Part shown: positions 1,548 through 52,828 of the stretch, piece by piece
Position numbering within the stretch: the stretch's first letter is position 1
How the letters are laid out: every line of letters begins with the position of its first letter
Source: Auriscalpium vulgare
Taxonomy: Eukaryota; Basidiomycota; Agaricomycetes; Russulales; Auriscalpiaceae
DNA: 64,000 nucleotides
Direction: 5' to 3'
NCBI GenBank assembly: GCA_019915015.1
Contig: JAHBBC010000056.1
Location: 33,070-97,069 of the forward strand
Notes under the pieces: model-generated
The model's database searches: none
Told to the model about the DNA's origin: nothing
What the model saw: the letters and a program-made list of their open reading frames with translations, nothing else
Program-made: the position numbers and the translations under genes

Positions 1548-2385
1548 TATTGACTGTTACCATCTCTCTGTCAGCATTTCGGCGAGAAGACTTGGGGAAG
1601 ACCTACGGTGACCGGGGGATATAAAGTCATTCATCGAACGAACACCCCCGCCCCGCTTTTATTCTACATGCTGTTACCAACCCCGGGTTGTTCTACGTTA
1701 TATCCCTTGTCACACTGCGGTTAACAACCTCAGGCCGCCCGCGATTGACGGTTTTGTCCGTCCCTGACGGACGCGTGCGCGCACGGCCAATATTCGCACG
1801 CATCACCCGGCGACCCTGACGCACACATGCGTGATGCGGTTAACAACCTCAGGTCGCCCGCGATTGACGGTTTTGTCTGACGGACGCGTGCGCGCACGGC
1901 CCATATTCGCAAGCATCACCCGGCGACCCTGACGCACACATGCGTGATGCGGTTAACAACCTCAGGTCGCCCGCGATTGACGGTTTTGTCCGTCCCTGAC
2001 GGACGCGTGCGCGCACGGCCCATATTCGCAGGCATCACCCGGCGACCATCACACATGCGTGATGCGGTTAACAACCTCACTCGCCCTTCAGGGACGGTTT
2101 TGTCCGTCCCTGACGGACGCGTGCGCGCATGTCCCATATTTGCGGGCATCGCCCGACGATCGATGCGGTCAACGATCTCAAATCGCCCCTGAGAGCCAGT
2201 TATGTCCGTCCCTGACGGACGCGTGCGTGCATGGCCCATATTCGCCGATGTAATCGCGGCTATCTTGCCGGACCCGCGGCATCTTTTCGAATGCTCAACA
2301 TTTCATCGCACGCCCATGTGTGGAACCAGAGCGACGAAATAATACAAGCCCCGATTCCAACCAAGGGCTGCAGGCAGCGAAATGA
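1548..2385. repeat. Intergenic tandem repeat, about five units of 102-119 bp, with palindromes
   Basis: Units begin with GCGGTTAACAACCTCA near 1717, 1836, 1949, 2063 and 2165. Each contains GTCCGTC-CCT-GACGGAC (perfect at 1756, 1988, 2102 and 2204) followed by a CGTGCGCGCA run and a CATATTCGC block; the unit at 1836 has a deletion in the palindrome. The array begins about 200 bp upstream of the F-box gene that starts at 1547, and downstream of the one ending at 2386. No gene is supported here. Confidence 0.9.
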
Positions 2386-3843
2386 CTACGCTCGAGTACT
2401 ATCGACTACCAAACGGGAACTCTCAGACGCTGGCGGGTCACGGAAATAACAATCTACAAACTTCAACTGCTTGACCCCATCCGCCGCAAGTCTGGCCCAC
2501 TCCTCGACATATTTGCCGCTTACCATGCAGCGTTTGAAAATGACCCTTCGCTCTCGTGCTCCCCATTTGTCCGACTTCAGCCACTCCAACACCTCCCGGG
2601 TCCATCTGCGGTTGCGTAGATCCAAGTCCCCAATGGTGACAAGTACCAGCGAGGAAAAGCATGGGTACCAGCCCAAACCTTCCAAAATAATCCCCTTCTT
2701 GCGCCGTCGCCAGAGATAGTGAAGGGTTGATACGTTCATGTCTGGTAGCAGGCGCATACAGAGGGATGACCATGAGCCACCCTCGGCGGGAAAATCGATG
2801 ATGCATTCCTCGCAGTCGTTTCCCAATTTCATGATGCGGCGGCCGCTACCTTCTGAGCAGTGGACAGTCATGGGTGACCGCGTGGGAATCTGCTGTATGT
2901 CAGCGTCCCGCATGCTCAAGGTACTCCATGGACATACCCCAATCATGTGGCGTGGGAACACCATTGAGACCAGAGTGTTCACCTCAGCGTTGTCGCCCTC
3001 GAGAATCAATGATCGCTTGCATGTCACGGGAAAGTGCATGAGGCCCATGACCCGAACGATGGTCCGACGGGGCGACCAATTTTGCAATCTCGGCGCGTAT
3101 ATTTGAAGAGTAGAAAGGCGAGGGAATATGACTGGATCGCTTGCCTCGAACGTGGCGGTCTCTGCGAGGTGGAGTTCGATGTCGAGATTCTCCAAGTGGC
3201 TGAATCCCCGCAAAAGTCGCATGGCTTCCCAGTCGTGGGTTACTGGTGAGCGAGTCAGGGGGTTCTCCCCTCCGGATCGCAATCGGAATGAGACCAACTG
3301 GCCGGAGGCGGGGACAGACTCCGGCCACACTACGTCATACCAGGTCACGCTTCGGAGGAGGGGGGTTCCTCGTGACAGGAATCGGCTGGGCAAACGTCGT
3401 ACCGCCTGGAACAGCGGTCGCTCTGTCCAGCAAGCCATGGTAAGGGACTCCAGCAGCGGTGCAGGTCCTTGGAGTTGGCGCAACAGCGGGGTACCATCGC
3501 CGTACCTCTCCGGACTCCAATCCAATTGGAGGCCCCGCAGGCGCCCTTGGTGCTCAACTATCTTCGCTGTGAGGCGTGGGTTCATGTGGCAATCCATGCC
3601 GGTAAAGTCGACCGAACGGGCCCCTGAGCGCGCAAAAAACTCGATCGCCCATTCCTCGCCGCCGTCGATCTGATTGATGCGGGTCCAAAGTTCTCCATCG
3701 TCTATCGCTATCCGACGCCACCGTTGGCTGACGCTACTCACTGTAAGCAACAGGGACAACGTGTCGCCCCGATCGCACGCAAGATGCCGGAACACGGTGC
3801 TTAGTATCTCGGGGGCCAGGTCGTTGATTGTTGGGTGCAACAT
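2386..3843 (-). CDS. F-box protein, family member 2 (single exon, 485 aa)
   Basis: Intronless reading frame. Residues 5-55 fit an F-box: INDLAPEILSTVFRHL, a hydrophobic stretch with SSVSQRWRRIAI, then GELWTRI. The rest is a leucine-rich region with regularly spaced hydrophobic strands, probably the substrate-binding part. The motif FPVTCKRSLIL in the middle matches PxxCxR in the three neighbouring F-box genes, so all four belong to one family. A TATATAAG box lies 117 bp upstream of the ATG and a palindrome cluster about 300 bp upstream. The copy at 55214 encodes the same protein. An SCF role is inferred from the F-box alone. Confidence 0.8.
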   Translation of the reverse strand: MLHPTINDLAPEILSTVFRHLACDRGDTLSLLLTVSSVSQRWRRIAIDDGELWTRINQIDGGEEWAIEFFARSGARSVDFTGMDCHMNPRLTAKIVEHQGRLRGLQLDWSPERYGDGTPLLRQLQGPAPLLESLTMACWTERPLFQAVRRLPSRFLSRGTPLLRSVTWYDVVWPESVPASGQLVSFRLRSGGENPLTRSPVTHDWEAMRLLRGFSHLENLDIELHLAETATFEASDPVIFPRLSTLQIYAPRLQNWSPRRTIVRVMGLMHFPVTCKRSLILEGDNAEVNTLVSMVFPRHMIGVCPWSTLSMRDADIQQIPTRSPMTVHCSEGSGRRIMKLGNDCEECIIDFPAEGGSWSSLCMRLLPDMNVSTLHYLWRRRKKGIILEGLGWYPCFSSLVLVTIGDLDLRNRRWTREVLEWLKSDKWGARERRVIFKRCMVSGKYVEEWARLAADGVKQLKFVDCYFRDPPASESSRLVVDSTRA

Positions 3844-3952
3844 TTCACCTTCGGAGACCCATGTCTTAGTAAACCAAGTGCTCCTGTAAACCTAGCATAC
3901 ATACCAGCTTTGGGGGAAAGAGGGGTGTCTCCTCCCGTGCTGTCGTCCGGCC

Positions 3953-4140: not shown

Positions 4141-4478
4141 GTCCGTCCTGGACGGACGCCCCGCGTCCTGGCACAGTCAATTGGCGCGCACTTCGACAGC
4201 ATCGCGGGGCCCGCATTGTCCGTCCCGGACGGACGCAACGCGTCCTCGCACGGCGAGTGCTGGCGCGCACCTCGATACGCGTCCTGGCACAGTCAATTGG
4301 CGCGCACTTCGCGGGGCCCACACTGTCCGTCCCGGACGGATGCAACGCGTCCTCGTACGGCGAGTGCTGGCGCGCACCTCGATAGTGCCACGGCGGCGCA
4401 GCCCCTGACGGACGGCGGGCATGAATTGTAAGGAAGTTGCCCAAGGACCCCCTGCCTGTACGTCCGTCTGCGACGGAC
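4141..4478. repeat. Palindrome cluster with a 107-bp tandem duplication
   Basis: Perfect palindromes lie at 4141 (centre CTG), 4218 (CCG) and 4462 (TGC); the one at 4325 has a last-base mismatch. The two at 4218 and 4325 sit in a tandem pair of about 107 bp containing CAGTCAATTGGCGCGCACTT and GCGAGTGCTGGCGCGCACCT. The cluster lies about 300 bp upstream of the F-box gene starting at 3843. The rest of 3844-4782 shows no gene. Confidence 0.85.
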
Positions 4479-4782: not shown

Positions 4783-6228
4783 TCAGATCTCATCACTAAG
4801 TTCAAAGCGCCCAGCAGGGGGCGTAGGGGCTGCCACTGCATCATGGTACCGGTCAACCCAGTGGCAGCAATCCAACTTCACCATCGTACCAGCGGTCGCC
4901 CAGGTGGACCAAAGCAAAAGTGCCTGGTCCTGTAGCACACATCTCTGAAATATCACCGTGCGTTCCGCCCTGCCCCACCTCGCTTCCGCTAGAAAACCCC
5001 CGGAGTGGAAGAGGCTGACCTGTTCACAGTCGTGGATGGTGACCCGAGCGAGTTGCGGGAGGAACTGCCCGCCCTGAGCACCCACGCAGGCTCTCATCCA
5101 CCCTTCGGCCCCACCCTGGTTGAGGGTGACCACAGTGAGCTGGTGTAGGGGACGCATGACTTCCCTCCAGACTGAAAAATCCGGATTCATGGTGGCACCA
5201 AGGTACCGAAACGCCTGTATGTTTCGCCTTCTGAGCAGCCGCAGGCAAGCGGACAGCCACGCCATACGGTCCTCATAAACGGAGACGACTATTGTCGCAT
5301 CTTCTGTATCATTCGTGATGTGGAGACAGCAGCTTGTGTCATTGTTCCGCACGGACACAGAGACTGTCGTAGGTGTCTGAAGAGTAGGCTGTGGGTGGCA
5401 TGACAATGAATAACGTGGGCTCATAGGCAGAAATTCCAAACATACGCTGCTCTCCGGAAATGCTAGGGCAGCTGCAATCCCTCCCATCTCGGACGGATCA
5501 ATGTGACCATTGCTGAGCGTGATCTTCCGTTGACAGGTGGGGGGGATTATCACCATGGATAGGAACTGCAGCATCCCATCCGGAGGGCCACGGCCTGTGA
5601 GACGCAGGACCCGGAGGTGGGGTAATGTCACGGCTTGTACTTCCACACCCATGTGGAAGTCAACGTTGAACTCCAGGTGCTGCAATGAAGCGAATGTCCG
5701 AAGGGGCTGCAGCGCTCTGGGGACTGAATAGTTGTTGCGGTCGATGAATCCATAGCTGACTCGGTGACCAAGTGAGATGTTGGTCAGGCTATGGCATCCC
5801 TGGGAGAGAAATTCGGTGGGCCATTCATGGCGCCCGACCGGTGTAGCAAGCAAGATGCCCACCAGCGCGTCCGCCGGGCCAGTCATCCGCCGCAGCAGTG
5901 AGTAGGTGTCACCAGCTTGTCGAAGATCAACATGTCGTAGACGACCCTGGTGCTTGATGAGGAGTGCACAGGTTGCATGGTCGAGCTGGCGGCGGGCGAT
6001 GAAGTCGACCAAAGCATGTTTTGAGCGTTCAAACAACTCTGTGGTCCACCACGGCCCATACCCCATGTCGATATGTGTCCACAGGTCGCCCTGGTGTAAT
6101 GCCACCTCGCGCAAATAGCGGTTCAGGCCACTCAACGCGAGCAACTCTCTCATCGAGTGTCCGTATTCATCGGCGACAAGCCGGAATATCTTCTCAACGA
6201 CCTCAACGGGCTGGTTCTGGAGGACCAT
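4783..6228 (-). CDS. F-box protein, family member 3 (single exon, about 481 aa)
   Basis: Reading frame open from 6288, but the start is best placed at the internal ATG at 6228: its product begins MVLQNQPVEVVEKIF, directly at the F-box helix, and this places the TATA box 129 bp upstream, as in the sister genes. F-box features are VEVVEKIFRLV, a leucine-rich stretch ending SGLNRYLREVAL and GDLWTHI. A leucine-rich body follows with IPPTCQRKITL, the family PxxCxR motif. It resembles its neighbour at 2386 in LW(T)xI, in LFERSKHALVDF versus FFARSGARSVDF, and in HQGRLR. Likely an SCF adaptor; the partner is unknown. A second copy starts at 59056. Confidence 0.78.
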   Translation of the reverse strand: MVLQNQPVEVVEKIFRLVADEYGHSMRELLALSGLNRYLREVALHQGDLWTHIDMGYGPWWTTELFERSKHALVDFIARRQLDHATCALLIKHQGRLRHVDLRQAGDTYSLLRRMTGPADALVGILLATPVGRHEWPTEFLSQGCHSLTNISLGHRVSYGFIDRNNYSVPRALQPLRTFASLQHLEFNVDFHMGVEVQAVTLPHLRVLRLTGRGPPDGMLQFLSMVIIPPTCQRKITLSNGHIDPSEMGGIAAALAFPESSVCLEFLPMSPRYSLSCHPQPTLQTPTTVSVSVRNNDTSCCLHITNDTEDATIVVSVYEDRMAWLSACLRLLRRRNIQAFRYLGATMNPDFSVWREVMRPLHQLTVVTLNQGGAEGWMRACVGAQGGQFLPQLARVTIHDCEQVSLFHSGGFLAEARWGRAERTVIFQRCVLQDQALLLWSTWATAGTMVKLDCCHWVDRYHDAVAAPTPPAGRFELSDEI

Positions 6229-6349
6229 GACGGGGTTTCTGTGGGAGCACGCTGTGAGCCATATGTACCACATGCGTCGTAGGGGCATTTACGCACTTTC
6301 GGTGATACAGCGACGAGCTCGTCTGCCACCCATGGATGGCCCTCTGGCG

Positions 6350-6609: not shown

Positions 6610-6895
6610 GTCCGTCCAGGACGGACAGCGCGCGCGGGGCCTAAGCTGTCCTCACGCATAGCGGTGCCCCTCAATCTGTCCGTCCCGGACGGACACGCGT
6701 GGGTGGCACCGCACCTGGACGGACAGGCCGAGCGCGGGGCCTAAGCTGTCCCCACGCACAGCGGTGCCCCTCAATCTGTCCGTCCCGGACGGACACGCGT
6801 GGGTGGCACCGCACCTGGACAGACAGGCCGAGCGCGGGGCCTAAGCTGTCCCCACGCATAGCGGTGCCCCTCAATCTGTCCGTCCCGGACGGACA
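6610..6895. repeat. Three-unit 100-bp tandem repeat with palindromes
   Basis: Perfect palindromes at 6610 (CAG), 6678, 6778 and 6878 (all CCG). The last three are exactly 100 bp apart, in units containing GGGTGGCACCGCACCTGGAC and GCGGTGCCCCTCAATCT. The cluster begins about 380 bp upstream of the preferred F-box start at 6228. It shares no monomer sequence with the repeats at 1717 or 4141 apart from the palindrome. Confidence 0.88.
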
Positions 6896-9289: not shown

Positions 9290-9830
9290 TAGGAGACAAT
9301 GAGGTTAGCGAGCTTGACAGTGTTAAATGCTCGACAGGATGGATTAAGTACGACGGCACTTTTCACACCCCCGGTAGCTTGTTTTCATGCCAGTGGAGCG
9401 CAGCCAAACTATGTAGGCAACAGGTGTCCGCCGCATCGACCCTATTTGTCCGTCGCGGACGGACGGTTCGCGGCACCCCCTGTGCGAACACGTGACCTGT
9501 ATGGGGTGGTCAGGGAGCGTCCGTCCAGGACGGACAGCTCCACCCCTTGATAGCGACCTTGGCATATTGTTCGATGCTCGACTACGACAGCAGTGTTTAC
9601 GCGCCACATCAGGGGAAGCCTGTTTCACGCCGGTGGGCAAGAAGTGTCCAATCCTCAGGGTGTCCGTACAGACGGCTCGTGCCTCTCCTGGCCAATCACG
9701 TGACCTGCATGAGGTGTCCCGCCTGAACCAGCTGCCAGCGATGAAGTTGTCATGTTGCTCGGCTGGCGTGAACCACTTTGTGGGCAGGCGCGCACGTGTC
9801 CGTCCGGGACGGACGCAACCTGGTGTCAGG
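9290..9830. repeat. Repeat modules with CACGTGACC box and palindrome
   Basis: A module of about 200 bp (GTTTTCATGCCAGTGGAGCG, a palindrome, CACGTGACCTGTATGGGGTG, a second palindrome, then GATAGCGACCTT) occurs here, followed by a partial second module with TCACGTGACCTGCATGAGGT. Perfect palindromes are at 9448 (GCG), 9519 (CAG) and 9798 (CGG). Related modules occur at 32.88-33.44 kb and inverted at 11.7-12.1 kb. The block ends about 300 bp upstream of the F-box gene at 10126. From 9830 to 9930 short GTCAGGGT/ACCCTGAC repeats follow. Confidence 0.82.
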
Positions 9831-10010: not shown

Positions 10011-10125
10011 GGGCTGTGACCAGGTTTTCCTCTGGTGCAGCCTTTGAAAGCCCCAGTCTTGGTAGGTCTTCAAAGTCTAAGGCCCTTGCATTGATGATGC
10101 TAACGAAGTGGAGTAGTGATCAAGA

Positions 10126-11494
10126 ATGCCCTCACGTCTGGCAGCAGAAACATTGGGAGAAATATTCCTACACTTGAAGGCAATCGTGAAACATTCACGG
10201 AGTGGAAGTTGGACGGTCGTCTTGCTGGTGTGCCGGGATTGGAATCACGTTGCCGTCAATTTGCCTGCACTGTGGGTCACAATCTACACCCGACATGGCC
10301 CGGGCGCTGTGGCGAAGTACCTCGAGAGGACGCGTCGCGCACCAATCACCCTGGTCGTGCGGCCAGTCAAACTGCGCCGCACATTATCGAAGCAGATGGT
10401 CAAAACAATCTTGGCTTGCCAGGACCGCTTGGAACGCCTCCATTTCTTTGTGACTGATGATACTCGCGCCTTGTGGAGTGATCTTTCGAAGGAGGTTCTT
10501 GCCGGGCCATTGAAGTCACTTGCAATCTCCAACCATCCGGTGTACGCGGTGGACTTGCGCATGCCGGAGGTACTGCGGTTCTGCGGCGCCTTCGCTGGCC
10601 TGACGAACCTTGCAGTGCGAATGCACCTTCTGCCCGGAGGCACCCAACCAACCATCACCTTGCCGAAACTGGAGAACCTGACTATTTGGGGGGAGTCCAT
10701 GGGGGAGGCTACAACGCTCATCTCACACATCCATCACCCATCCAACTGTCAACGTGCCTATATGTGGTTCCCCAACGATTGGCCAGAGGCCTACCCAGCG
10801 ATATCAGAGGAGGCGTTCATCCGGCTCATGGTGAATCCCCCCACTGGAATGGGACAGGTGGGGTTCAGGTTATATTTTGCAATTCATTCAATGAAGGGTT
10901 GAACATCTTTTACAGGAGAATGTCGAAGACATTGCCTACGATGCTTGTATTGAAAAATGGGAGGGCCACCTGAGGATCCATATAATCGCGCGCACGCACG
11001 GTGACGAGGTTAAGGCCTGCTACATCACTGTCCCTTGGCGCCTCGCGCTGAGTCGTCGTCTTGCCCAGGCTGCTGTCCCTGCGATGTCCGGGCTCAAGAT
11101 AGAGCGGCTGCTTTACTCAGTAGGCGACACGTCGGCCGATGAAGATGTGTGGAGGGAATGGCTGGCATCGGCCCACCACCTGTACGAGGTGACGGTCGAC
11201 GGACACAACGCGCTGGCCTTCTGTCAGGCGATGAGTAAGGCGCCTGTGGATGGGTCGTACCTGCCCAGCCTGCACACGTTGAATATTGACGAGGTGAACT
11301 TCATGAACTCCCCGACTGCGACATTCCCCCAGGATGTCGAGATGTGGAGGACGAGTCGGGATCGGGCTGCATTTTCGGTCTTGCTTTCGTGTTGCAGGAT
11401 GACAAAAGGGATACTCGCGGCGTGGGAGGAGGGAGCTCCAGGGCTAAAGATAAAGAGGTGGAGCTGTACGGTTGTTAAGGTGAAGGTGGCTTAG
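10126..11494 (+). CDS. F-box protein, family member 4 (two exons)
   Basis: Closest relative in the window is the gene at 178-1547. The start MPSRLAAETLGEIF aligns with MQSRLATETLGHIF. Exon 1 is 10126-10857, the 58-bp GT..AG intron is 10858-10915 (phase 0), and exon 2 is 10916-11494, giving 436 residues. F-box residues are LAAETLGEIFLHL, LLVCRDWNHVA and LPALWVTIY. The family motif is HPSNCQR. Exon 2 ends with APVDGSYLPSL, ATFPQDVEMWR, CRMTKG and APGLKIKRW, mirrored in gene 1. It points the opposite way from the other three F-box genes. An SCF adaptor role is inferred from the F-box. Confidence 0.75.
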
Positions 11495-12115
11495 GTACAA
11501 GTTGTTTAAGTCCTGTTTCAAACAAGTGTTATCGCACCATCATGTCATGCAGGATGAACGTCGAGGACGGACCGCGCAGCGCGCGGCGAGATATAAACAT
11601 AGCGCAGAGAGGAATGTAAACGGGCCTGAAACATCACAATAGTGAGACACCTACCAGGCAGGGCAAATTAAGGCATTCCGCCACCATAATTCGCTATTGG
11701 AACACCTCGAAAGCGGTGGTTGTTGCTAAGGTGGGGGTTTGGGAATGCGACATGGGACGGGTTGTTGAGGTCGCTCTGAGGGGATGGGCGCGTCCGTCCG
11801 GGACGGACGCTCGCAGACCGCCCCATGCAAGTCACGTGATTTTGCAGGAGAGCCGCGTCCGACGTCGCGTCGCGCGACCGTCTGCCCACATAATTTTGGC
11901 TGCGCTCCACCGGCATGATAACAAACTACCTGATATGGCGCGTAAACAGGGCTTCGAGGATTTCAGAATTTGTCAAGGTCGCTATCAAGGGTTGGGAGTG
12001 TGCGCGTCCGGCCAGGACGGACACTCCCAGGCCACCTCTTACAGGTCACGTGATTGCGTAGGAGTGCCGCGCGGCGTCCGCGGCCGTCCGTCCGCGACGG
12101 GCCCTTGCGGTTGTC
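11495..12115. repeat. Inverted copy of repeat modules also found at 33.0-33.6 kb
   Basis: Read on the minus strand this region contains two modules with the CACGTGA box and palindrome (perfect at 11792, degenerate near 12005 and 12083). Together with the 3' part of the preceding F-box gene (from about 11390) it matches 32.99-33.74 kb in inverted orientation, for example CGCCACCATAATTCGCTATT and GATATAAACATAGCGCAGAG. The pair is diverged by substitutions and small indels, so it is older than the 52.8-kb duplication. Confidence 0.8.
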
Positions 12116-13234: not shown

Positions 13235-13309
13235 CTGCGCAGCTTGATACCCTACAGCGGCAGCGTTAGCATCTCAGCTGCTCCTGTCGGGGACCGCGGC
13301 GTACCTATC

Positions 13310-23990: not shown

Positions 23991-24003
23991 GTGGAGAGGT
24001 TTC

Positions 24004-36900: not shown

Positions 36901-38561
36901 GCTCTCTTTTGTGGGGGGTTCCCGTCCAAGGGATAACGTCCAGGCTACCAGGCTTGAGGAAGCGGCGGGCTTCGTCACAGACCTGACTGACCAGGCCAGG
37001 AGGCACCACAATGAGGAAGGGAGTGGCTGGCAGGGTGCCCGATTTGCCAGATCTGTCCTTCCATGCTACGGTGCACTGGGTTAGGGATGGTAAACTACAG
37101 GCGCAGAATGGTGCGACTTACTCCACTCTCCCGGATATGAGCCATGCTTGCAGTGGTATTCCCGGTAGAAATCAAGCATAGCGAAGAGCCCAATAACCTG
37201 AAGGGTCTTCCCCAATCCGACATCGTCCATAAGCAGCACTGGGCTCGATGTGCTTGCACGCGTCAGCATCCTGTGAATACCAACAACTTGATGCCAGCGC
37301 GGACGGAGCGGCTCGCCATTGTCGTCAAACCAGGCGTCGTCGCCTCTAGTGTGAACCCCGGCTGGGTCATACTTGGCATTGAAGAGGGGAATACAGTCCT
37401 TGACCCCCAGGAGCTTCCATAGGTCGTCCATCGACTTTGTTTGATACTGCTCCACCCCGCTGTCCCAGTCGACAGGTGCCGCACGGTCGACGTCAATGTC
37501 GGGCAAGGATGCCTCAGCGTGCACATCTGACATGAGGGAGGATATGGCGGACGCGAGCGACTCTGCGTCTTCAGCGCTGGAAAGCAATTTCAACGCGTCG
37601 CGTAGAGCTTTTGGCAAGGCTGTGCATGTTCGTCAGTGTCAAGAGCACCCATGAGCCAAGGAGAGCTTACAGGATGGGACGGCACCGGGGCCTGTCTGCA
37701 GCTCTTCTCGAATGTGAATGAGATTCTCCTTGTGGCGCTCAAGAACGCCTTCTGACTCGCCCCAGATGTCGACAATATGTTGCAATTTCCGTTGCTTTGC
37801 GGCATAGCCGCGCAGGACGGCTCTTGTGACGTCACCTCCGGGTGAGGATAGGGCTGCACCCGGGATGAGTTGGCGGACAGTAAATGTGAAACCAAGCCTA
37901 CTCACACGCCCAGGTGTCGTCGAGCTCTTCCGTTATGCTCTTTGCTCTCGCCTTGTCGCGCCCGAATTTTTTACGGAAGGCGTTCCACATGGCGGCCACC
38001 ACCGAGGACAAAAACTCCTGCACCTCCCGCTTGGGCAGGGGCATCGGTTTTGTTGGGTCGTTCATTGCGTCCTTACCAAATAAAGCTTCGGCAATTGCCG
38101 GGTACATGGCGGCCACCCCGGAGTACTCCATCTCTGGGAAGTCGCTCTTCGTGATGTCATAAGCGTAGCGACTGGGGTGAATATGACCTGCGTACCTCGA
38201 TATTCTCCACGATCTGGGGGGGAGTACGATCCGCATCCGCGAGGATTTGTTCCAACACGACGTCAACCCCCCACTGGTCCCAGCGGTCACGACAGAACTT
38301 CGTCCACCCTTCACGACCCGCTTTGTCATTGTTGTTCCTTGCGCGGCTGAAAAGTAATGGGTTTTCAGCAGCCCAGAACTTCTGGGCGTATGCTGTGATC
38401 TGTTCCAGCTGGGTAGGAGTGAGGCCCAGCTCTCTTGCGTCGGCCGCGGGTAGATACGGAGGTATGATTTTCCCAGTCCGCTCCTGCCATTCGGGCCACT
38501 CCCAAACACCGGAGTGGCGACTGAGCTGGAGCAGGGCGTGGCTCGGCGTGAATGTAGGCAT
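33948..38561 (-). CDS. SNF2-type helicase/translocase, paralogue 1 (many exons)
   Basis: Predicted ATP-driven DNA translocase of the SNF2 class. The start is the ATG giving MPTFTPSHALLQL, like MPTLSYML of the paralogue at 52167. Exon pieces in order: an N-terminal unknown region (38561-37640); Walker A VLLMDDVGLGKTLQ near 37210; motif Ia-like FLIVVPPGLV; motif II YDEAHEARR near 36635; motif III IAMTATPIQNK; the C-terminal helicase lobe with DKIIVYAYFVSSF, motif V SSVGSVGLNMAFAN near 35210 and motif VI QQLIGRVWRQPQ near 35090; then a 330-residue disordered tail with basic clusters (RKRPDSPR, KKKAGRGRRN). Most introns are about 50 bp, but the one between the lobes is 348 bp and holds palindromes. 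It has DDVGLGKT where most SNF2 proteins have DEMGLGKT. Divergent from the 875-aa gene at 38726. Tail frame and some junctions are approximate. Confidence 0.8.
35700..36047 (-). repeat. Enlarged intron of SNF2 paralogue 1 holding two palindromes
   Basis: GTGAGT donor at 36047 and CGTAG acceptor at 35700 join KQFRT to RFYLSIRQVV in phase 0. Inside are two copies of CTCCCGCGTGTCCGTCCAGG + ACGGACA (palindromes at 35895 and 35974, centre CAG), 79 bp apart. The paralogue at 46670 has its 611-bp palindrome-rich intron at the same protein position. Confidence 0.8.
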
Positions 38562-38725: not shown

Positions 38726-41415
38726 ATGGCCGCCCCCAGAGCACCCCATGAAGACCTGCCCGAACGTCAAGTCAGTCTAAAGACATTCGTCAAAGAAGCC
38801 GCCACTAGCCTTATGAGTGCCCAGCTGGTCGACGATGACGGGGAGGCAGAGGCTATTGTTGCCCAGGCCCGAGTTACCGAGTTCATCGATCTCGTTTTGT
38901 GCGGGCGCTGTGAGTTCGAGGATGAAGACGGGGACGACGTGCTGCATCGCGTGCGTGTGAACGCTCGACAAGGCTTGGCCGCAACGGACCCGACGAACTT
39001 CACAGTAACCCGCGACCTGGACTCGGCCCTCGGGATTACAAGGAACCTCCCCTTCTCCGTACCATTCTCGTTTTATCCTGTCCCACCTCTCAAGAATATT
39101 TTGAGCACCCCCGTTCATCTCAAAGGACCCGTGGCCGACGAGGTAAGTAATTTTGTGGATAGCCCGTCGTCGTTACTAAAAACGTCACAGAACGGCGAAG
39201 AAATTGACGTCCCCCTTCACAAGATCCCCAACATTTGCATCGGCAAATTCGGCACCAGGCACCAAACTCGCGCATTCTTTCCCAGCTTGTACAAGAAAGT
39301 GGAGAAAGTGACTCAGGCCCAAATGAGGAGATGGTACGACGAGTGCGTCCGACCTGCTTTGCAAGCGGTAGCGCCGGAGAGGATGGCCCACTGGCCACCA
39401 GATTATGACTCCGCCATGCGGCTGGACAGAGACGTAAGGGGCATGATCCACCTGGGTACCGTGGACATCCCCAGCGACGAACTGGTTGCGTTCACTCAGG
39501 CCCTGCGCGACAGGTGCGAAGCTCACTCAGACTTCGAGGACGTTTATTTCGGTCATGAGATCAGAGGTCTCAAGGAAGCGCATACACATCACCCTTCGGA
39601 CCACGACGCGCGCGCACGAGCCCTTGCCGACTTCACTTCGTGTCTCGACATGGGACGCATCAACGACGACGAGTGGTGGGTCGATGTAGCCCTGGAGATC
39701 CACAGCAGGGCCGCAGGCGTCGTGCAGTGGCTGGACACCGCGCCCACCCAGATTCTCAAAGAGGTCCTTCCCCATGCCACGGACGGCCAAATCGAGAGAC
39801 TGCGGAGGGGCAGGCGGTTCTACACAGACACTGTTGCCCAGATCGGAGATTTTGCCGGCTTTCGAGTGGAGCCCGGCGCTGCCGGCACCCAAGATGGCGT
39901 CCAGTACATCAATGTGTACACCACGGACAAGGCAGTAACGTACCAGTTGCACCATGGGTTGTGGAGGAGGCGCAGTGCCAAGGATACCTTACCGACCGAG
40001 ATCGCTCGGTTGACCGCGGACATTGAGAGGATGAAGGAGACGTATCAGTCGTGCATGGGGCTCAATCCACAAGTTGGGACTGCCAGGCTGGAGATCCGTG
40101 TTCGGATGTGCGATGCGTCAGACGTACTGCGGGGCCTGCCCGACAGGATACTCAGGGAGTGCGTCGCGGTCGTGCCACCCAACGTCTGGTGGTAAGTCTC
40201 GCAACCTGCCGCTTCTACGTATGCATTCTGATCCCCGCCAACTATCCACACAGGATGTTCAAGGTGTACCGACTTTCTGGCCTGTTCCTCGTCCTGAAGG
40301 CATTCCAGGACACGCCCAACAAAGCCGTTCGTTCAATCCCAGAGGCGCTCACGCTTGGGGCAATCATCATCTACATGCTGAATGCTCTAAATTACCGCCC
40401 TCAGGCAAGCGAGGACGAGGTCGAGCTCCTAGACTGGTGCTGTTATCACCAGCCCAGAGAGGTACAAGGAGAAGACGTCGAGGACGACCGGGACTGGGAG
40501 CCGCTTCACTACCAGTTTGGCGTATACTTCATATCCGGTATCGTGGAGCAGAGCGGTGTGCCGCGGATGTACTATCGCATGGTAGTGCCGAACGATGTGC
40601 TCCGAAAGCTGTACGGCGTAGACACAATGGCGGACCTCAGGGCGGCATTCCATCTCTCCGTTACCCGCGCAGACAAGTCGTTCATTAACCAGACTCGCAC
40701 GAAAAACCGCCGTCGAAACCGTCGAAACCTCCTCACTCTGGTGGATCCCGATCAGCTCCCACTGGCGTCGTTCAACCTGGACGAGGACAGTATACCAATG
40801 CAGCCACTTGCTCAAGCCGCAGGAGACGACGTTGAGGATGATGGCGTTGCCAGGGACGACGAAGATGGTCTGAACAACACTGTATCGCAGATCTGGGCTA
40901 CCTTCGCCTTTGACCTCCTCGATAACGGCCCAAACATGAAAGCGTCCTCAGCAGGAAGTTACATTACAATGTCCAGTGCCGACCGGGAGGGCGTGACGGA
41001 CAACATATTCCGACAGACTGACCTCTCAGGCGTTTTCCTGCGGGTTGCATTGAAAATGGTGACAGCCGAATCCTGGCATACCGTCCACTTCGATCACTGG
41101 TTTCCAGCTGAGATCCGGAAAACCGCCTGGAGACAGAATTTCAATAACTTCCCATACTGGCAACGCTGGGCGAAATTGATCGACGGCCTCAGTCCAGAGG
41201 GCATCAGCAAGGTCAGGAACGCCATCTGGGTCCAAAAGTTCAGGGACCTTGTTTGGCTGCCGTTTTCGGAGGCCGGGCGGGCATGGCGGACCGGAGTCCA
41301 GAAGGACCCCAGGTTACGACATTTGCCCCAGGGGGAAGAAGGGTTGCGATGTGTGTTGTTGGTGGTGAATGAGGGGACTAGGAAGACTTTGCAGGACTTC
41401 ACGCTGAATGCGTAG
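38726..41415 (+). CDS. Uncharacterised 875-aa protein paired with an SNF2 helicase
   Basis: Exon 1 is 38726-40191, the 62-bp intron is 40192-40253 (GTAAGT..CACAG) and exon 2 is 40254-41415. The splice keeps frame and joins PNVWW to MFKVYRLSGLFLVLKAFQ. No signal peptide or clear membrane span. The N-terminal half is mostly globular and charged, with HQTRAFFPSLYKKVEKV and RINDDEWWVDVALEIHSRA. The second half has an acidic patch (GDDVEDDGVARDDEDG), a strongly basic patch (TKNRRRNRRN, possible nuclear signal or nucleic-acid contact) and a tryptophan-rich C-terminus (ESWHTVHFDHWFP, WVQKFRDLVWLPF). No domain recognised. The long intact frame, correct splice and TATA box indicate a functional gene. 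Confidence 0.75.
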
Positions 41416-42001
41416 AACACGGCGGAGGACGGGTTATATTGAATGTGATCATCATATTCGCAATGATAATGGGGCATGACGATCGCCCGCCTGTGTTCCA
41501 TGCCAAGATTTGTCCGTCTGGGACGGACGTCTGTGGGGGCGCCCACTAATCCAATCTTAGAACAGGCGGATACGGTGTGCTTCGATTACAACGCCGAGGC
41601 AAGCACCGTGTCAATCTTGGACGGACAGTGAGGGGGGGCTCAGGGGTTAGGACGATCGCACGCCTGTTGGACGAGCCAAAGATTGTCCGTCCAGGACGGA
41701 CGCCTGTGAGAGGGCCCGCATATCGTCTCTTAGGCGGTGTGTGTCGTTTACCAGACCGAGGCAGTCACCTTGTCCGTCTTGGACGCATTCCTTGCGGGCG
41801 TTTTATCACAAAGTCGCGCATGTCCGTCCCGGACGGACACTGCGGAGGGGCCGACGGATCGCGCGGATGCCAAACGCACAGGGTTTGGCACCGTGTGCGG
41901 GTCCGTCCCGGACGGACACTTTTGAACACTTCCTAAGGTGTGGTCAGCTCATTGAACCACCGAAAAACATATCCTCCGGCAGCACTCTGAAGCGATCGTG
42001 C
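41416..42001. repeat. Palindrome cluster downstream of the 875-aa gene
   Basis: Perfect palindromes at 41512 (TGG), 41685 (CAG), 41822 (CCG) and 41901 (CCG), with degenerate ones near 41612 and 41771. Two loosely repeated blocks of about 170 bp share CCAAGAT/CAAAGATTGTCCGTC and ACCGAGGCAGTCACC-like segments. No gene is seen. Confidence 0.8.
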
Positions 42002-42009
42002 ACCTAGGT

Positions 42010-43081
42010 TAGTGTTGCCGGAATACGATACGATACGGCTTTAAGGCAGCTTAGGTAACGCATTAAGGTGGTATCAAGCTACCTTAAAGCACGCTCCACA
42101 GCTCCATCGGCGCAGGGCTCGTGCCACGGGAACAGGCTGGCAAGAAGCCAATTGGGCTGTGCTGTCGACGCGAGGCTCACCGCATTAATGCCAGGACAGT
42201 GTTGAGTCCGTGTAGTACGAAAATAAGTATGTACAATAATCATATGTACGACAAGTCGACCTATACTGTCACGAGCCAAGGCCCCATTGAGCAGGCCAGA
42301 GAGCTCGTCGACCTCTCCTCTCTCTAACAAGCCGCGCAACGTCTCCGCAGGGATGTCCACAACCTGCAGCCTGCAGACTGGTAAGTTGAGGGCACAGAGT
42401 GGCGGGATTGCACCCGGATACGGATAGGAATATGATGTTGGGCCAAAGGTGAGGATGTGATAGGATGGGGCGGGCAGCGGGCGCTCGGCGGCATAAACCG
42501 ACGCATGCTGCGCGGTCACCTCACGAGCAGATCGACACCACAATGGAATAAAGGAGCCAAAGTGCCAGATGGCAGTGGCGTAGGATGTCGTGCTGATGAG
42601 GGTGCACTCGATGGATGGCAGGGACAGCAAGTGACATTAAGTACTACACAGTAGAGTACAATGTCAAAGAAAATGTCAGGTAAATACCTCTATATCATGC
42701 AGCTCCATCTTTCCTGCCTGATGCTCACATCCCCACCGTCGCTAACCCTCAACGAGCCTGTCCCACCGCCCGCCGCCCTCCGCCGCCCCGCAGTCATCTT
42801 CAGAGTAGCCGAGCCGACAATGATCGATGGAGCCATCGGTGGTGCATGGCGACATGGTCACCGCGCACGTTGGGATCTAAGGAGATGCGGAGACGACGAG
42901 GGTGAGGAGGGATGAGTGTTGTGGGAGGAAGGGCAGCCTCCGTCGCATCAGGTGTTGTACATCACGGAATTTGCCGACTGGCCTTAAGGTGTATCGATGT
43001 GACATTAAGGTTCCACATATGGGCATAATGTGATATTTTCATCGTATTGACCTTAAGGCGCATCGTATTCCGGCAACACTA
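42010..43081. mobile_element. Non-autonomous hAT-like element (MITE), 1072 bp
   Basis: Terminal inverted repeats TAGTGTTGCCGGAATACGAT are perfect over 20 bp at both ends. The flanking 8-bp duplication ACCTAGGT (42002-42009 and 43082-43089) indicates a hAT-type mechanism. The paralogous sequence at 46514-46531 shows the empty site with a single ACCTAGGT. Subterminal CCTTAAGG/TTAAGGTG motifs recur on both sides. No transposase is encoded. The TIR differs from that of the 15369 element, so it is a different family. Confidence 0.93.
42079..42630 (-). other. Open frame inside the MITE, possible captured host sequence
   Basis: 183-codon frame that fills much of the element. Parts look protein-like (LPVCRLQVVDIPAETLRGLL, ERGEVDELSGLLNGAL). 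It has no transposase features and I do not recognise it. MITE or Pack-type elements may carry gene fragments; here that is only a possibility. Confidence 0.3.
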
Positions 43082-43160
43082 ACCTAGGTGCTTCAATAGG
43101 CAAGACAGAATGTAGCAGGATGTCAGTACATTGGAATTTTGGAAACTCCGGCGAAAGTTC

Positions 43161-46669: not shown

Positions 46670-49600
46670 CTACTGTGCCCGCGGGCGCTTGCTCGGTGGG
46701 GCGTCCTCTGTGGGGCTCTTCGTAGACCGTTTAGGAGGTGCTTCGCTGTTCCCACGACTCCGCGTCGCGACGACTTTGACCGGGGCGATGTGGCCTGAAT
46801 TCCAGAAGTCAGAGCCCGTAGGAATGGTGACGGAATTGCCGGCTCCTTCCACCCAAGCGTCCAATTCATCGAGCCAGCGGAGGAAATTCTCGAAGCGCGC
46901 GCAGGTAGGCTCGCTCTTTGCATTCTTCGCGGCCTGGAGATGGCACTTGGCCATTTTGCGCATGTGGGGGATGTACTTCGGCCAATCCTCGTTCAGGTTC
47001 TGGGCGGCCAACTTTTCATCTTCCTCCGCTTCCCACTGATCAACGACACCCTCGTCCAACATAGGGTACCCTTTGCGCAGTGCCGCGAGCAACGCCTGAT
47101 TGGTGGACTTTCTTTCAGAGTCTGGCGTGGGGCGCGAGCGCTTGGCCGCGGGCTCTTCCGTCGACGCAGTGGGCTGACGCTTGGATGATCCGGCGGTCCT
47201 CGCTGGAGCTGCGAGCTTGTCGCCCGACGACTTCCCTACCGTGCTCTTAGCGGTGGCTAAGCGCATTGAACTCCTCGATGCTTGGTCGACCTGTTTCGTC
47301 TTGCCCTTCTTGGGACTGTTGCCTTCGGGCTCTTTGGCGGACTCGACGACTTCGTGCGATCCAGTTGGCTCTCCCTCTGAGCGGGCGCTTGTAGCAGGGG
47401 ACTTGGGGTCCAGGGCGCGCGGGGATGGCGGCTGCCCGCCCGTGCGGGATGAGACTTGCGCGTGGGGAGTCGTGGCGCGGGAGGATGTGTGGGCGGGCTG
47501 CGATCCGGTTGATTCATCGCCCATGCCTGATGAGACTTGCTCCTCTGGATACGGGGCGCGGGAGGATTCATTGACCGGGGGCGTTTCGTCCTTCCTTGGT
47601 GGCAAATTGGGACCGGAAGTCGGCTTGGGTGAAGATGTTTCGCCGGGTGGCGACTTGTCCGACGCAGGCCCTGATGGCTGGTCCGTAGACTTGGCGCTGG
47701 TGGTCGCAGTCGCAGCTTGGGACTTTGCCGTGTCTGATTGGCCACTGTCCTCTGAGCGCGTGGAGGGGCCAACTGCGGCGGGGGTTACGGGCTTGCCAGC
47801 TGGTGGCTGCACCGTGCCTGTCTTGCCCGATTTGCGCCGTGCTTTCTTCACCTCGCCCGCGTCGGCCTTCGCAGGCGTCCTGGATGTCTTGGCCTTCACT
47901 GGCGGGCTCTCCTCCTCGACGGCACCATCGACAATGTCCTCATTGCCTGCCTTGCGCGATTTCCGCCGCGGTTTCTTCACCTTGCCCGCGGGAGCCTTCG
48001 CAGACTTAGCGCCTTTGGATTTCTGGGCCTGGACCGCAAGGCTCTCCTCCTCCGACTCGACATCGGTGGGGTCGGCATCGTCGAGGTCGTCAGCGGTCGC
48101 CAATTGTTCTGTTCGATTGTAAGACAAGGATTCTGACAGGTGCAGTGGGACTCACGAAATGCCGGTTTCGAGCTCGTGAACACCTCTTGGATGTAACCTT
48201 TAGCGAACGATATGTTGTTCAGCCACACGTCTGGCGTCTGGTGTCCGATGAGACGGTAGACATGCACCGTCTTCGCCTGCGGTTGCCTCCAGAGACGTCC
48301 GATAAGTTGCTGATCGGTCATGACGGACCACATCACATCCTGTGGGTGGTTTTTGTTAGAGCGTGAGAGACGAAATGAACTCCTTGCATACAATGATAAT
48401 GAGAACATTGGCCACGTGGAGATTGAGGCCAACTGTTCCCGCCTCGGATATGATCAGAACCCTTATGTTCGGATCGGTGCGGAACTGTTCAACGACTTTA
48501 CTCCGAGCGTCCATCGTCATGCTCCCGGTCAGCACGAGAGAGGAGGATTTGTTGAGAAGTTTCAGTTGCTGAGCTCGGTGATGAGGACAATGACAACAGA
48601 GGAATCGTCGGAAGCTCACATTCTGCAGACGCGGATGGTTGAAGATGAAGAACGAGTAAATGACGACTTTGTCCGGGCTCACGTCCGTGACAGGCTCGTC
48701 TCCCCGTAGGTCTTCAACGGTTGGCGGTGATATAGCATCGCCATCGGCTACAGAAATGTCAGCGACGGACAACGACGATGGACAATGACTCGCATACCCG
48801 CTGGTTGCTCATAGTGAAGCCCAGCTACGACGTGCTTGTCCTGAAGATGGTGGTTCAATATCTCCGCCACGTTGTCCAGCTTACGCGACGGGCGCCTGTC
48901 GTACTCTGCCATGGTGGCAGGGAGGGGTCCTACGTTAAGACAATCTGGGTGCGTGCTCGCAATGCGAAGGTCGAGATAGAAATCCTGTGGGATCAATAAA
49001 TGGTAAGCACCCGGCTGCAGGGAGGGCGGAAAGCGACGGCTCAGAGGGTGCCGCACACATGAAATGTCCGTCCGAGACGGACACCCTGGGGGTGAGCCCA
49101 GTGCCGCCTTCGCAGACGATATGGCGTATGCCACACACATGAAATGTCCGTCCGAGACGGACACCCTGGGGGTGAGCCCAATGCCTTCGCAGACGATATG
49201 GCGCATGCCGCACACATGCAATGTCCGTCCGAGACGGACACCCTGGAGGGGAGCCCAATACCGCCTACGCAGAGTACACGGCGTATAGCGCACACGCAGC
49301 GTCCGTCCGGGACGGACACCCTCATGACTGTCCATCGAGCACGCCGCGCGCGCTGTCCGTCTGGGACGGACAACTGAGGAGCTGCCTCCATGCACGGTGC
49401 AGACGTCACACACGGCGCCCTCCACCGTGGAGGCGTTGCAGCCTCCTGCGGCGAGCGGCGCGTGCGCCTCGCTGTCCGTCCTCGGCGGCAGATTGCCATG
49501 GGGCCCTCGTTTGTGTCCCGGGGCTCCCCACCAGTACAAGCCGTCACAGTACGTCCGTCCGAGACGGGAAATGAGTAACTACGATTCACACTCACAAGTT

Positions 49601-52167
49601 TGGCCGGGTTCCTGATTCCGGCATCAGTCTCGAGTTGATCGACTGCGATTTGCTCCAGCACTTCCATCTCCCATGGGTGAGGCTTTTGAACCACCAGGTG
49701 TTCGCGATACGGGTAGAGACCAGAGATGGGCTTTCCGTCCGATCCGAGCGACTTACCCGTGCGACGTATCACACAGCCTTCGAACGCAACACGAATTTCT
49801 TCAACGACTTGTCCAAGCTTCTCCCTGTGGTGCTTGCCGTAGGCAACGCCGGTCTGGCCCGCGATCGTCCTCGTGAGTACCTCCTTGGGTGGGCCTTGTT
49901 TCTTCGCTTCTTTCCGGTCCAGGGCAGTCCCCGAATTGACGGTCTTCTGCCATTGATTGATGCGGTCTTCACATGCGTCGGCGAACGCTGCAAGCCCAAG
50001 TGCGCGGCCAAGGTTGCAAAGATCCTGCGGTTGAGGTCAGAGCATGCGTGATATCGGCAGTCTAGATTACAGTCACCTTTGGGTGTGTTTGGACGGGTGT
50101 CGCGGTCATGGCAACGAAGACTCCCGACTTGGCTCGAAGCGTCCGACCTGTCATGTACATGAAATTAACCTTCCTCAGAACGTGGGCTTCATCGAGCGCA
50201 GTCGCCGCGAAGGTTTCGCCGAAGACGGTGTGAGGCAGCTTGTTGGCGATGTTCGGCATCTCGCGCGGTGCGAACGCCTTTTTCCTAGGGTCTGGAACCA
50301 TGACGTGACGGAAGTCGGACATAGCGGCCTATTGGGTGTCAGCTCAGCTCGCTGAGGTTGAGCAAGTTGACAATACCGTAGTCGACATCAGCAGGATGGT
50401 GTTATTGTAGCGGTTCCCTGTCCTCTTTTTGATCTCGTCCAGAGCGCCTAAGCGCCTCAGGATGCCCCCGGTGATGGGCTGGACTGGAATCGAGTCGGCG
50501 CGAAGGAACCTCGCGACCTCATGAGCCACCTGACCGACGAGGCCAGGCGGAACCACCATCAGAAACGGAGCGTTGGGGACGCGTCCGGTCGGATGGTTTG
50601 GGCCGCCGAACCTCTTTCCTGCTGCTGCGGATAAGGAACCACCGGCTGCGCCTAAGATGTCGCACCACTCACCAAATTGACCTGGGTAAGGTCGGCCTTG
50701 CCGGCGCTCATCCCTACACCACGCGAGCATCGCAAAGAAACCGAGGACTTGCAGGGTCTTTCCAAGACCCACGTCGTCCATGAGGAGGACAGGTTTACCC
50801 TCGAATGCACAATCGAGCATTCTGCAGATGCCAACAAGTTGATGCCAGTGCGGCACCAAGGGCACGCCATTGCTCTCCTCCTCGAACCAAGCCCGATGCA
50901 GCGATGGTACCTTGCTGCCTTCCAGGTCCACCTTCGGATGGAAGAACGGCAATTGGCCCGTCGTGATCCCGAGCGCCTGCCAGAGTTGTTCAACGGTGTA
51001 GTCCTTGTATTGATCGACGCCGGTGGTCCACTCCGCGTTGCTCAAGTCGCCCATGGCTGCATCGGCCGACATTGGCACTGGGTGGTCCGTTCGCTCTTCG
51101 TCGGGATCTTCGTCTCGACTGAGGTGACGCGCCCAGGGGATGAGGTCCCCGCTGCCTGATTCACTCGCTATCTTTTCCAAAGCCTCGCGCATCAATTTCG
51201 GGAGCTCTGCATGTTGTCGTCAGACAGTCTGCTTGCTCCATAGCTCTAGCACTTACTTGCAGTCTTGTCCGGCTCATCGGGCTGGAGCCCCGCCAAAATG
51301 TCACGCACTTGCTGCTTCCTAGCCTCCAAGATCGTCACTGCCTCACCGTCCTGGCACTTGGTGACGATGGCCATGAGTTTGTTGGCCGTGGCCAAGTACT
51401 TACGGACCCCGTCGCCATTCGCGTTCCCCTCGAATATGCCTATGAGGGGTGAGCATGAGCAGACGAGCAGTTACACATGTCCTACATACCAGTCCACCGC
51501 ACAGTCAGGTCTTGCTCGTACTTCGTTCGAGTCTTTTTCATGCGTGTATGGCTTGTCCGCCATCCATCCCAGACATTGTTGATCAAGCAACCGACAACGT
51601 TGCGTAGCTCGGGGGTCAGGAGGGCCGCGCCCGACTTGGTGATAAGGAATGCTTCATCGCCAAACAGGTGTCTGGCGATGTTCTCGTAGCTCACCGAGAG
51701 CTCGGTGTAAGACGGGAACTATGGCGCCTTGAGTGAGAAACTATCATGGACAGTGGGTAACTCACCTCAGATTTTTGCATCGCAACCATATATTCATAGG
51801 GATTGACCTCTTCGACCTCCTCTAGAAACTGCCTGACGCTCTGCGGCACCTTCCACTTCTTCCAAACATTGGCGTGCCACGTGTGTGCAATCGCCCGGCC
51901 TTCTCTGTACTCCTCGTCGCGCGCCCTCTCTTTCGTCTCTTGGACCGTGAGCAGCCTTCGGGGTTTCAGGTCGTCGCCCCTGACATGCTTGGCAAACGCA
52001 CACGCAGTATCCAGTTGTGACTGCGAGAGGTTGGGCACAGTTTCAGGCCTTGCCTCTGTGGCCCAGGGCGGAATATCGCCGCCCGTGTACTCAGTCCACT
52101 CGTAGCTATCGACGAAAAGGTGCGTTGGCAGAAGGACAGTGGCGAGCATATACGACAAAGTGGGCAT
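46670..52167 (-). CDS. SNF2-type helicase/translocase, paralogue 2 (many exons)
   Basis: ATG at 52167 (MPTLSYMLATVLLPTH). Same architecture as the gene at 33948: an N-terminal unknown region with NLSQSQLDTACAFAKHV; Walker A VLLMDDVGLGKTLQ near 50760; FLMVVPPGLVGQV; motif II ALDEAHVLRK near 50185; motif III VAMTATPVQT; the C-terminal lobe with DKVVIYSFFIFNH, SLVLTGSMTMDARSKVVEQF, motif V SEAGTVGLNLHVAN near 48430 and motif VI QQLIGRLWRQPQ near 48290; then a long lysine/serine/proline-rich tail (48100-46670) with repeated KVKKPRRKSRK-type blocks, likely DNA-binding or nuclear targeting. The intron between the lobes is 611 bp and full of palindromes. All motifs are present, so ATPase activity is plausible. 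Identity to paralogue 1 is moderate, so the pair is old. Minor junctions are approximate. Confidence 0.8.
48985..49595 (-). repeat. Enlarged intron of SNF2 paralogue 2 holding a palindrome array
   Basis: The GTGAGT donor (49595) and CCACAG acceptor (48985) join IRNPAKL to DFYLDLRIAS in phase 0. Inside are perfect palindromes at 49066, 49146, 49223 (centre CGA), 49301 (CGG) and 49355 (TGG), and damaged ones near 49474 and 49553. The first four sit in units of about 80 bp with GCACACATGAAAT before and ACCCTGGGGGTGAGCCCA after. Confidence 0.82.
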
Positions 52168-52828
52168 GGTGGGGAAAAGAGAGGGCGACTGAGACCCAAC
52201 TCGTGCTGGTTATATACTGCCTGGCCGATCGAATTTAGGAGCACATGACTCACGGCAGCACCAATGCGGACGGGCACGCGTGTCAAAGCCAAAGCGGGTC
52301 CGGGGATGCCGAGCGCGAATATGACCCGGAACCGGCCGAGCAGATGTGGCTCAGTGATTTCCCTACTCGTGCGGGTGTCGCGGTCATCAGGCCCAAATGG
52401 TCCTGAGGTGTACGTTCGGAAGGAGAGCAGTATGCGCGTCGATGCCGCCTCCAACAATCCCTTGAAAGGCTTCGCACAGCTGCTATAAACATTTTCCCTG
52501 GGCTTAGTGTCCCGACGGGCGTTCCCTCCCAGGGCAATGACGACTGACCACTCCTTCCACAATTTGTGATGGGCTGAGCATTTTAACACGGCCTGGAATG
52601 CTCATGGCGTCCGTCCCGGACGGACACCGCGGGGACCGTCCTCATGCTGAGGCAAAACAGACGGCGTTCCACGGGAGGTATATCTGACCCGCGTGGCCTC
52701 TTCTGTCCATACGACCCTGCGGGGCGTCCGTCCAGGACGGACACACGGGGCTGTACCGCTGGGGCGTACCTTCGTCACCGGCGAGTCAACCCCAGGACCG
52801 ACGTGTCCGTCCAGGACGGACCGCCCGC
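52168..52828. repeat. Intergenic region with three palindromes next to the duplication
   Basis: No gene is seen. Perfect palindromes at 52609 (CCG), 52726 (CAG) and 52805 (CAG). The start of the in-window copy of the 11-kb repeat lies 8 bp after the last one, but the true border is hidden because sequence left of position 1 is not available. Confidence 0.75.

Follow-up and report, generated by a model that had tools for sequence, protein, structure and literature searches.

The window analysed here is a 64,000-nucleotide stretch of the Auriscalpium vulgare genome (contig C56, positions 33070-97069, in a genome of 51.6 Mb and 96 contigs, denoted below by C and their number). It covers a subtelomeric repeat unit in one complete length together with the beginning of the next copy, which starts at 52829 and is 99.75% identical over 11.2 kb. 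Throughout the unit a 17-bp palindrome, GTCCGTC-N3-GACGGAC, recurs in clusters next to open reading frames (ORFs) of an F-box family, in predicted introns of two SNF2-type helicase genes, and in a 112-bp satellite. The features to which we refer are the following, in window positions and with the strand where the feature has one.

1-52828: subtelomeric repeat unit, one complete length with an arbitrary start point
181-1556, minus strand: F-box-family ORF A1, made up of two ORFs and paralogous to 10120-11491; its F-box-like match in Pfam scores 19.4 bits, short of the cut-off of 24.3
1756-2220: cluster 1, perfect sites at 1756, 1988, 2102 and 2204, on the 5' side of the minus-strand ORF A1
2389-3891, minus strand: F-box-like ORF B1, PF12937 match (3.7e-07) above cut-off
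4141-4478: cluster 2, perfect sites at 4141, 4218 and 4462, one-mismatch site at 4325
4786-6288, minus strand: ORF B2, diverged paralog of B1 (24% identity) with no Pfam match of its own
6610-6894: cluster 3, perfect sites at 6610, 6678, 6778 and 6878
9448-9814: cluster 4, perfect sites at 9448, 9519 and 9798
10120-11491, plus strand: F-box-family ORF A2, paralog of A1 (44%), Pfam match of 16.3 bits, below cut-off
11792-12102: cluster 5, perfect site at 11792, one-mismatch sites at 12006 and 12086, 3' of ORF A2
13309-24070: 112-bp satellite, split by other DNA into two blocks at about 13309-15314 and 19298-23970
33031-33339: cluster 6, perfect sites at 33031, 33109 and 33323, on the 5' side of ORF 31803-32792 (minus strand)
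33951-37632, minus strand: SNF2-type helicase paralog 1, predicted gene model; SNF2 lobe 21.9 bits, below cut-off, Helicase_C lobe above it
35676-36047, minus strand: predicted intron of SNF2 paralog 1, 372 nt, phase 0, perfect sites at 35895 and 35974 (79 bp apart)
41512-41917: cluster 8, perfect sites at 41512, 41685, 41822 and 41901, two-mismatch sites at 41610 and 41772, 3' of ORF 40027-41415 (plus strand)
46673-51219, minus strand: SNF2-type helicase paralog 2, predicted gene model, SNF2 and Helicase_C lobes both above cut-off
48985-49595, minus strand: predicted intron of SNF2 paralog 2, 611 nt, phase 0, at the matching position
52609-52821: cluster 10, perfect sites at 52609, 52726 and 52805, located 5' of both SNF2 paralog 2 and ORF 51969-52601 (minus strand)
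54584-62629: sites of the second unit copy, 14 perfect, at the first-unit positions plus about 52,828

The palindrome is more frequent than chance would allow. The window contains 51 perfect copies, compared to none in 100 dinucleotide shuffles: 32 had been listed in a first-pass annotation of this DNA, and all of those start positions (32/32) are exact matches, while five more lie in the satellite and 14 in the second unit copy. The genome-wide count, proposed there as a check, yielded 387 exact copies versus 0 for the reversed pattern, and 449 versus 16 sites when up to one mismatch is allowed. Each unit of 52,828 bp carries 37 perfect sites, along with 6 that have one mismatch, 6 with two and 8 with three; the corresponding averages over ten first-order Markov sequences are 0, 0, 0.3 and 3.0. 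The spacer between the arms is equally strict, with 37 copies at length 3 and at most one copy at any other length from 0 to 60.

Within one unit these sites do not descend from a single longer repeat, the refutation that the annotation had named. Alignment sorts the flanks of the 37 sites into 21 groups, at 10 places plus the satellite, using a score threshold of 22 (random pairs reach 11 at the 95th and 28 at the 99th percentile). A fair range is 17-21 groups of unrelated flanks, because by eye 2204 joins 1756-2102, 35895 joins 35974, and 41512 joins 41685. With one representative per flank group, about 1 bit of information is found directly outside the left arm (position -1) and at both outer centre positions, 0.8 at +17, 0.7 at +18, and mostly less than 0.5 farther out. 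The full site is Y-GTCCGTC-N3-GACGGAC-R, a dyad with one extra conserved base on each side: Y stands on the left in 20/21 flank groups and R on the right in 20/21, and in the CCG class of sites R follows on the right in 216/216 genome cases. The annotation had described fixed arms around a free centre. The centre does vary; rather than being free, it is mostly C-N-G, namely in 14/21 flank groups (17 begin with C and 17 end in G) and in 288 of the 387 genome copies (216 CCG/CGG and 72 CAG/CTG, compared to 99 with other centres, counted after removal of 9 double rows). Counting a wider motif, YCGTCCNGGACGR, revealed no enrichment beyond the full site: 288 of its 342 occurrences in total are the full C-N-G site, and the reversed control reaches 124.

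As perfect sites alone entered the flank-group alignment, its arm columns are invariant by construction and offer no evidence of constraint. Such evidence comes instead from the counts per mismatch class given above and from the divergence of arms relative to flanks. In 11 homologous site pairs, whose flanks have diverged by 4-26%, the arms differ at 2 of 154 positions, whereas 23.9 differences would be expected from the flanks (Poisson 1e-8). This set omits the tandem copy near 1870, the near-identical 6678/6778/6878 set and the two-mismatch sites, and the pairs are not fully independent, with 33031 and 33109 each taking part in two of them. That the arms stayed unchanged while homologous flanks diverged to this extent indicates that the sites are old. 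A comparison between units (1 arm difference in 1302 positions) has no power as a test of selection, because the divergence between copies is too small.

Two explanations that dispense with a reader of the site can be weighed against these numbers. One is neutral satellite copying, in which minisatellite arrays with a palindrome in each repeat spread and were homogenised at chromosome ends. Subtelomeres recombine freely, several of the clusters are tandem arrays, and identity between copies of the unit is mostly 99.4-99.9%, with 97.0 and 98.8 for two shorter pieces and lower values in the satellite. Such copying accounts for the 387 copies but neither for 17-21 unrelated flanks in one unit nor for the contrast of 2 versus 23.9 arm differences, and we regard it as very unlikely. 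The other is a small GC-rich palindrome that would be mobile, comparable in the nucleus to the GC clusters of yeast mitochondria, and would have inserted many times and stayed intact through recent movement; these clusters are palindromic and regarded as mobile (PMC4478555). Identical 17-mers in unrelated flanks, in predicted introns and in the satellite would suit such an element. Yet no direct repeat of at least 4 bp stands beside any of the 32 non-satellite sites or at 6 site pairs, and of the 94 comparable cells among 246 combinations of site and copy, 93 are full-length, one lacks 6 bp, and none is a clean empty site of 17-19 bp. In addition, homologous flanks diverged by 4-26% when the arms did not, and movement leaves the regular spacing described below unexplained. 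A mobile 17-mer was rejected in view of the missing flanking duplications and clean empty sites, and the idea appears very unlikely to us.

The conserved bases also inform on what kind of molecule may read the site. If the palindrome acted as an RNA or DNA hairpin, its arms would pair in transcripts or cruciforms to give a processing, termination or recombination signal. Perfect 7-bp arms around a 3-base loop and the copies in predicted introns would allow this, as would symmetric variants in the satellite (GGGCGTCCTGGACGCCC, and TCCCGTCCGGGACGGGA at 13846) and on C4 (GTTCGTCCAGGACGAAC), which suit a dimer equally well. However, the outer Y/R pair is of Watson-Crick type in 7/21 groups against a shuffle mean of 10.7, and the outer centre bases are paired in 14/21 against 13.9 expected, so that no covariation is seen. 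Conserved outer bases without covariation suggest that each half is read alone, as by the monomer of a dimer, and not as a stem. For this reason the hairpin was set aside as the main reading, and we judge it improbable to a high degree. Structured spacers were rejected as well: the stretches that separate adjacent sites show no more folding than controls do (mean z -0.50 versus -0.18, sd 1.22). Rfam gave 0 matches above the gathering score in the window. The annotation had argued for selection on a dimeric protein site or a hairpin over simple copying; mismatch counts, flank groups and the contrast of arms and flanks support selection on a dimer site, while the hairpin half of that claim is disfavoured.

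A natural candidate for such a reader would be a zinc-cluster (Zn2Cys6) protein binding everted CCG-N7-CGG triplets. The triplets noticed by the annotation are indeed present, at positions 3-5 and 13-15 of the 17-mer and with constant spacing. In Zn2Cys6 operators the triplets are mainly required and the remaining positions vary. Here, 18 mismatches counted by hand in 12 one- or two-mismatch sites fall 11 times on the 8 non-triplet and 7 times on the 6 triplet arm positions, where equal constraint would put 10.3 and 7.7. The non-triplet positions are thus as constrained as the triplets, a tighter demand than is usual for Zn2Cys6 operators.

The mapping of sites relative to genes, likewise among the checks proposed, placed clusters at the 5' side of all four F-box-family ORFs and also in predicted introns. 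Relative to TATA-like sequences on the 5' side of ORFs A1, B1, B2 and A2 the sites lie 129-593 bp beyond. Cluster 1 spans 129-593 bp from a TATA-like sequence at 1627 that was picked by eye, cluster 2 lies 181-518 bp upstream of the TATA-like box of ORF B1 (minus strand), cluster 3 lies 253-537 bp upstream of that of ORF B2 (minus strand), and cluster 4 lies 190-556 bp upstream of the TATAAAA of ORF A2 (plus strand). Cluster 5 is a diverged inverted copy of 33031-33339. ORF B1 (query 2389-3888) shares 40% identity over 82% with an Auriscalpium vulgare protein. Outside the window, a site on C9, 66.6 kb from a telomere, lies 5' of a further F-box-like ORF (PF12937, 3.6e-10) at a distance of 1.7 kb. 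For most ORFs scanned Pfam gave no family. A weak match to the TET/JBP oxygenase domain at 27121-28089 (minus strand; E 0.015, below cut-off) was also seen; this family is known in mushroom-forming fungi.

Each subtelomeric unit contains two diverged SNF2-type helicase genes. The SNF2-like ORF 50347-51219 of paralog 2 matches a protein of Auriscalpium vulgare at 85% identity across 81% of the ORF, and the paralog 2 query ORF has relatives in Auriscalpium, Lactarius, Pisolithus and Paxillus. Both paralogs are split between their SNF2 and Helicase_C lobes by a predicted phase-0 GTGAGT...CAG intron, and the surrounding exons are homologous (two-sequence E-values of 1e-16 before and 2e-06 after the intron). 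Both introns carry the palindrome. That of paralog 1 has two perfect sites, and that of paralog 2 has perfect sites at 49066, 49146, 49223, 49301 and 49355 and a two-mismatch site at 49553. The sites of the two introns belong to different flank groups, and in a comparison of the two introns no shared sequence was seen apart from the sites.

A further regularity concerns the distance between neighbours, which is 77-80 bp in 6/9 clusters with unrelated flanks (4141/4218, 33031/33109, 35895/35974, 41822/41901, 49066-49301 and 52726/52805). Taking any 4-bp window, the simulated P is 0.0003 with near-matches, and with perfect sites alone 0/20,000 simulations reached the observed value. The test omits the satellite, the 11792 cluster, which is a homolog of the one at 33 kb, and the near-matches 33557, 33746 and 49553, none of which lies less than 180 bp from a neighbour. 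Some caution is due, as there are local duplications within the 35.9-kb and 49-kb clusters, and on both C4 and C9 the site has a neighbour with two mismatches 66 bp away. On C4 this partner is GTTCGTCCAGGACGAAC, with one symmetric change; GTTCGTCCNGGACGAAC has no other occurrence in the genome beyond it. CACGTG E-boxes also lie close to the palindromes, 5/15 within 30 bp compared to a simulated mean of 0.7 (P 0.0012). They are found at window positions 9489, 9793, 11833, 33079 and 33293, mostly 24 bp away, with another at C4. The association is weak because 4/5 window E-boxes stand in homologous flanks (the C4 one does not).

In the satellite, five monomers contain a perfect site (15075, 15308, 19580, 20474 and 21693). 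Most monomers bear another palindrome, GTGGGCGTCCTGGACGCCCAC, whose core is likewise CGTCCNGGACG. To the eye, part of the consensus monomer (TCTCTGTCAAGGAAAGAT) resembles a decayed 17-bp site. Copies of the satellite with the palindrome at C1:2003 and 2346 adjoin an open frame at C1:1-1536 that by eye resembles a LINE-type reverse transcriptase.

Viewed across the genome, the palindrome is a feature of contig ends. The unit is present at about ten of them, several capped by TTTAGGG. Unit sequence was found at the ends of C2, C8, C11 and C56, and palindromes lie close to the ends of C13, C26, C27, C42, C51 and C52. TTTAGGG-type repeats occur at the ends of C2, C8, C9, C27, C42, C51, C52 and C56; in C9, C27, C42, C51 and C52 this is the contig start, C56 likewise starts with CCCTAAA repeats (C56:1-57), and CCCTAAA arrays are genome-wide mostly at contig ends. 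Four consecutive TTAGGG occur nowhere in the genome, and the telomere repeat here is TTTAGGG instead of TTAGGG; two basidiomycete genome papers (PMC12144256 and PMC8874372) reportedly contain the string TTTAGGG in their text. At the right ends of C2 and C8 the TTTAGGG repeats are joined to the unit itself, at about 30.5 kb (C2) and about 9.65 kb (C8) of its length, which identifies the unit as subtelomeric. These junctions at different interior points look as after breakage and new telomere addition. Some irregularities were noted at these ends. About 1.07 kb (window 42009-43082) is unaligned in the C2 copy and in the first C56 unit. Short internal TTTAGGG tracts at C13:1568374 and 1657698, near or within a palindrome-bearing end, are possible scars of end fusions. 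C26:1-150 consists of a 10-bp tandem repeat, CTTACTTTAG, unlike the telomere repeat.

Of the 387 genome copies 315 could be placed, 314 of them no farther than about 110 kb from the end of a contig; the single interior copy is C4:365883. The other 72 copies (CCG/CGG centre with AC next) were not placed singly and, by list order, lie on C27-C96 except C56. Since the copies belong to the subtelomeric unit, a context that the annotation had missed, their genome-wide abundance is mostly due to unit copying. It accounts for the number of units and does not explain the sites inside one unit. C10, C17 and C22, for which the lists are complete, have telomere-type repeats and no palindrome. The site thus travels with the unit and not with telomeres.

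This distribution raises the alternative of a chromatin element, a palindrome that would seed or delimit silent chromatin, or tether chromosome ends, throughout the unit, in genes as in the satellite, and would not tune single promoters. Besides the confinement of 314/315 placed copies to contig ends, the copies in the satellite, which has no recognised gene, and in predicted introns would fit such a role. It is at odds with the site-free telomeric contigs C10, C17 and C22 and with promoter-like positions near F-box-family ORFs, and the CpG value of the unit (0.85-1.09) gives no sign of heavy cytosine methylation. We consider a chromatin element unlikely, while keeping it well in sight. As the unit is not CpG-depleted, CpG depletion was uninformative as a test of protection.

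The site has dyad symmetry and defined limits, its arms hardly vary amid flanks that do, it takes up particular positions with respect to ORFs, and among the placed copies it is restricted to contig-end regions with one interior exception. Taking these together, we lean towards the view that the palindrome serves as operator for a homodimeric DNA-binding protein, which would co-regulate the F-box-like and SNF2-helicase genes of the subtelomeric cassette. In this mechanism a protein dimer would read one half-site per monomer, neighbours 77-80 bp apart (about 7.5 helical turns) may bind two dimers cooperatively, and a dimer bound at predicted promoters and introns could change the transcription of adjacent genes.

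Several observations weigh against an operator. Not all sites are promoter-like, as they also occur in predicted introns, in the satellite (five per unit, without a recognised gene) and at two 3' positions, where clusters 11792 and 41512-41917 follow an ORF and have no clear target. Upstream of SNF2 paralog 1, at about 38.6 kb, the palindrome is absent. On the gene side, gene models, introns and TATA boxes are all predicted; among the four ORFs of the F-box family only B1 scores above the cut-off of Pfam, B2 being placed by paralogy, and the TATA-like box of A1, chosen by eye, does not match the minus-strand TATA pattern. The arms are also not beyond change. In the 86%-identical pair of 11.4-12.1 kb and 33.0-33.7 kb, 2/3 sites have one arm change each, and the fifth tandem copy of cluster 1, near 1870, has 6 bp of the site deleted. 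Furthermore, the symmetric palindrome variants in the satellite and on C4 suit a hairpin as well as a dimer.

More tentatively, and with considerable doubt, the site could be part of a private regulatory code of the subtelomeres, in which a 19-bp dyad operator in pairs 77-80 bp apart allows one dimeric protein to switch or silence the cassette at ten or so ends. The operator would then have been kept in promoters, in the same SNF2 intron and in the satellite while its surroundings turned over, and the dimer might serve a selfish subtelomeric cassette. A distance of 77-80 bp is near one gyre of nucleosomal DNA. Fungal subtelomeric gene families change fast, and their control as a group is mostly known from yeasts. 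In this context, a strict dyad in one cassette, a fixed spacing of pairs and a common intron position in diverged paralogs provide a directly testable handle.

Our searches of the open-licence PMC literature turned up no description of a fixed palindrome linked to a cassette of subtelomeric genes; operators with dyad symmetry and helicase families at subtelomeres both belong to known kinds. Closest in form are the everted CCG-Nx-CGG operators of Zn2Cys6 proteins, which share the CCG/CGG dyad, a fixed spacing (here 7) and a position upstream of genes. In contrast to them, all 14 arm bases and the outer Y/R are constrained here, and the site is restricted to the subtelomeric unit and arranged in 77-80-bp pairs. 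Miniature inverted-repeat transposable elements (MITEs) and foldback elements also bring inverted-repeat sequence into introns and promoters, whereas the palindrome has no common interior and no target-site duplication, and the element measures at most 17-19 bp. The yeast mitochondrial GC clusters (PMC4478555) are similar in being short GC-rich palindromes with constrained symmetry at many unrelated places; the sites described here differ in being nuclear, in lacking detectable flanking duplications or empty sites, and in their fixed neighbour spacing. Finally, Agaricus bisporus var. burnettii has subtelomeric RecQ genes according to PMC7473861, in whose text 'palindrom' has 0 occurrences. Such RecQ/TLH-type families resemble the present case in placing helicase genes at many chromosome ends of a mushroom-forming fungus, and differ from it in that the helicase here is of the SNF2 type and has F-box-like neighbours.

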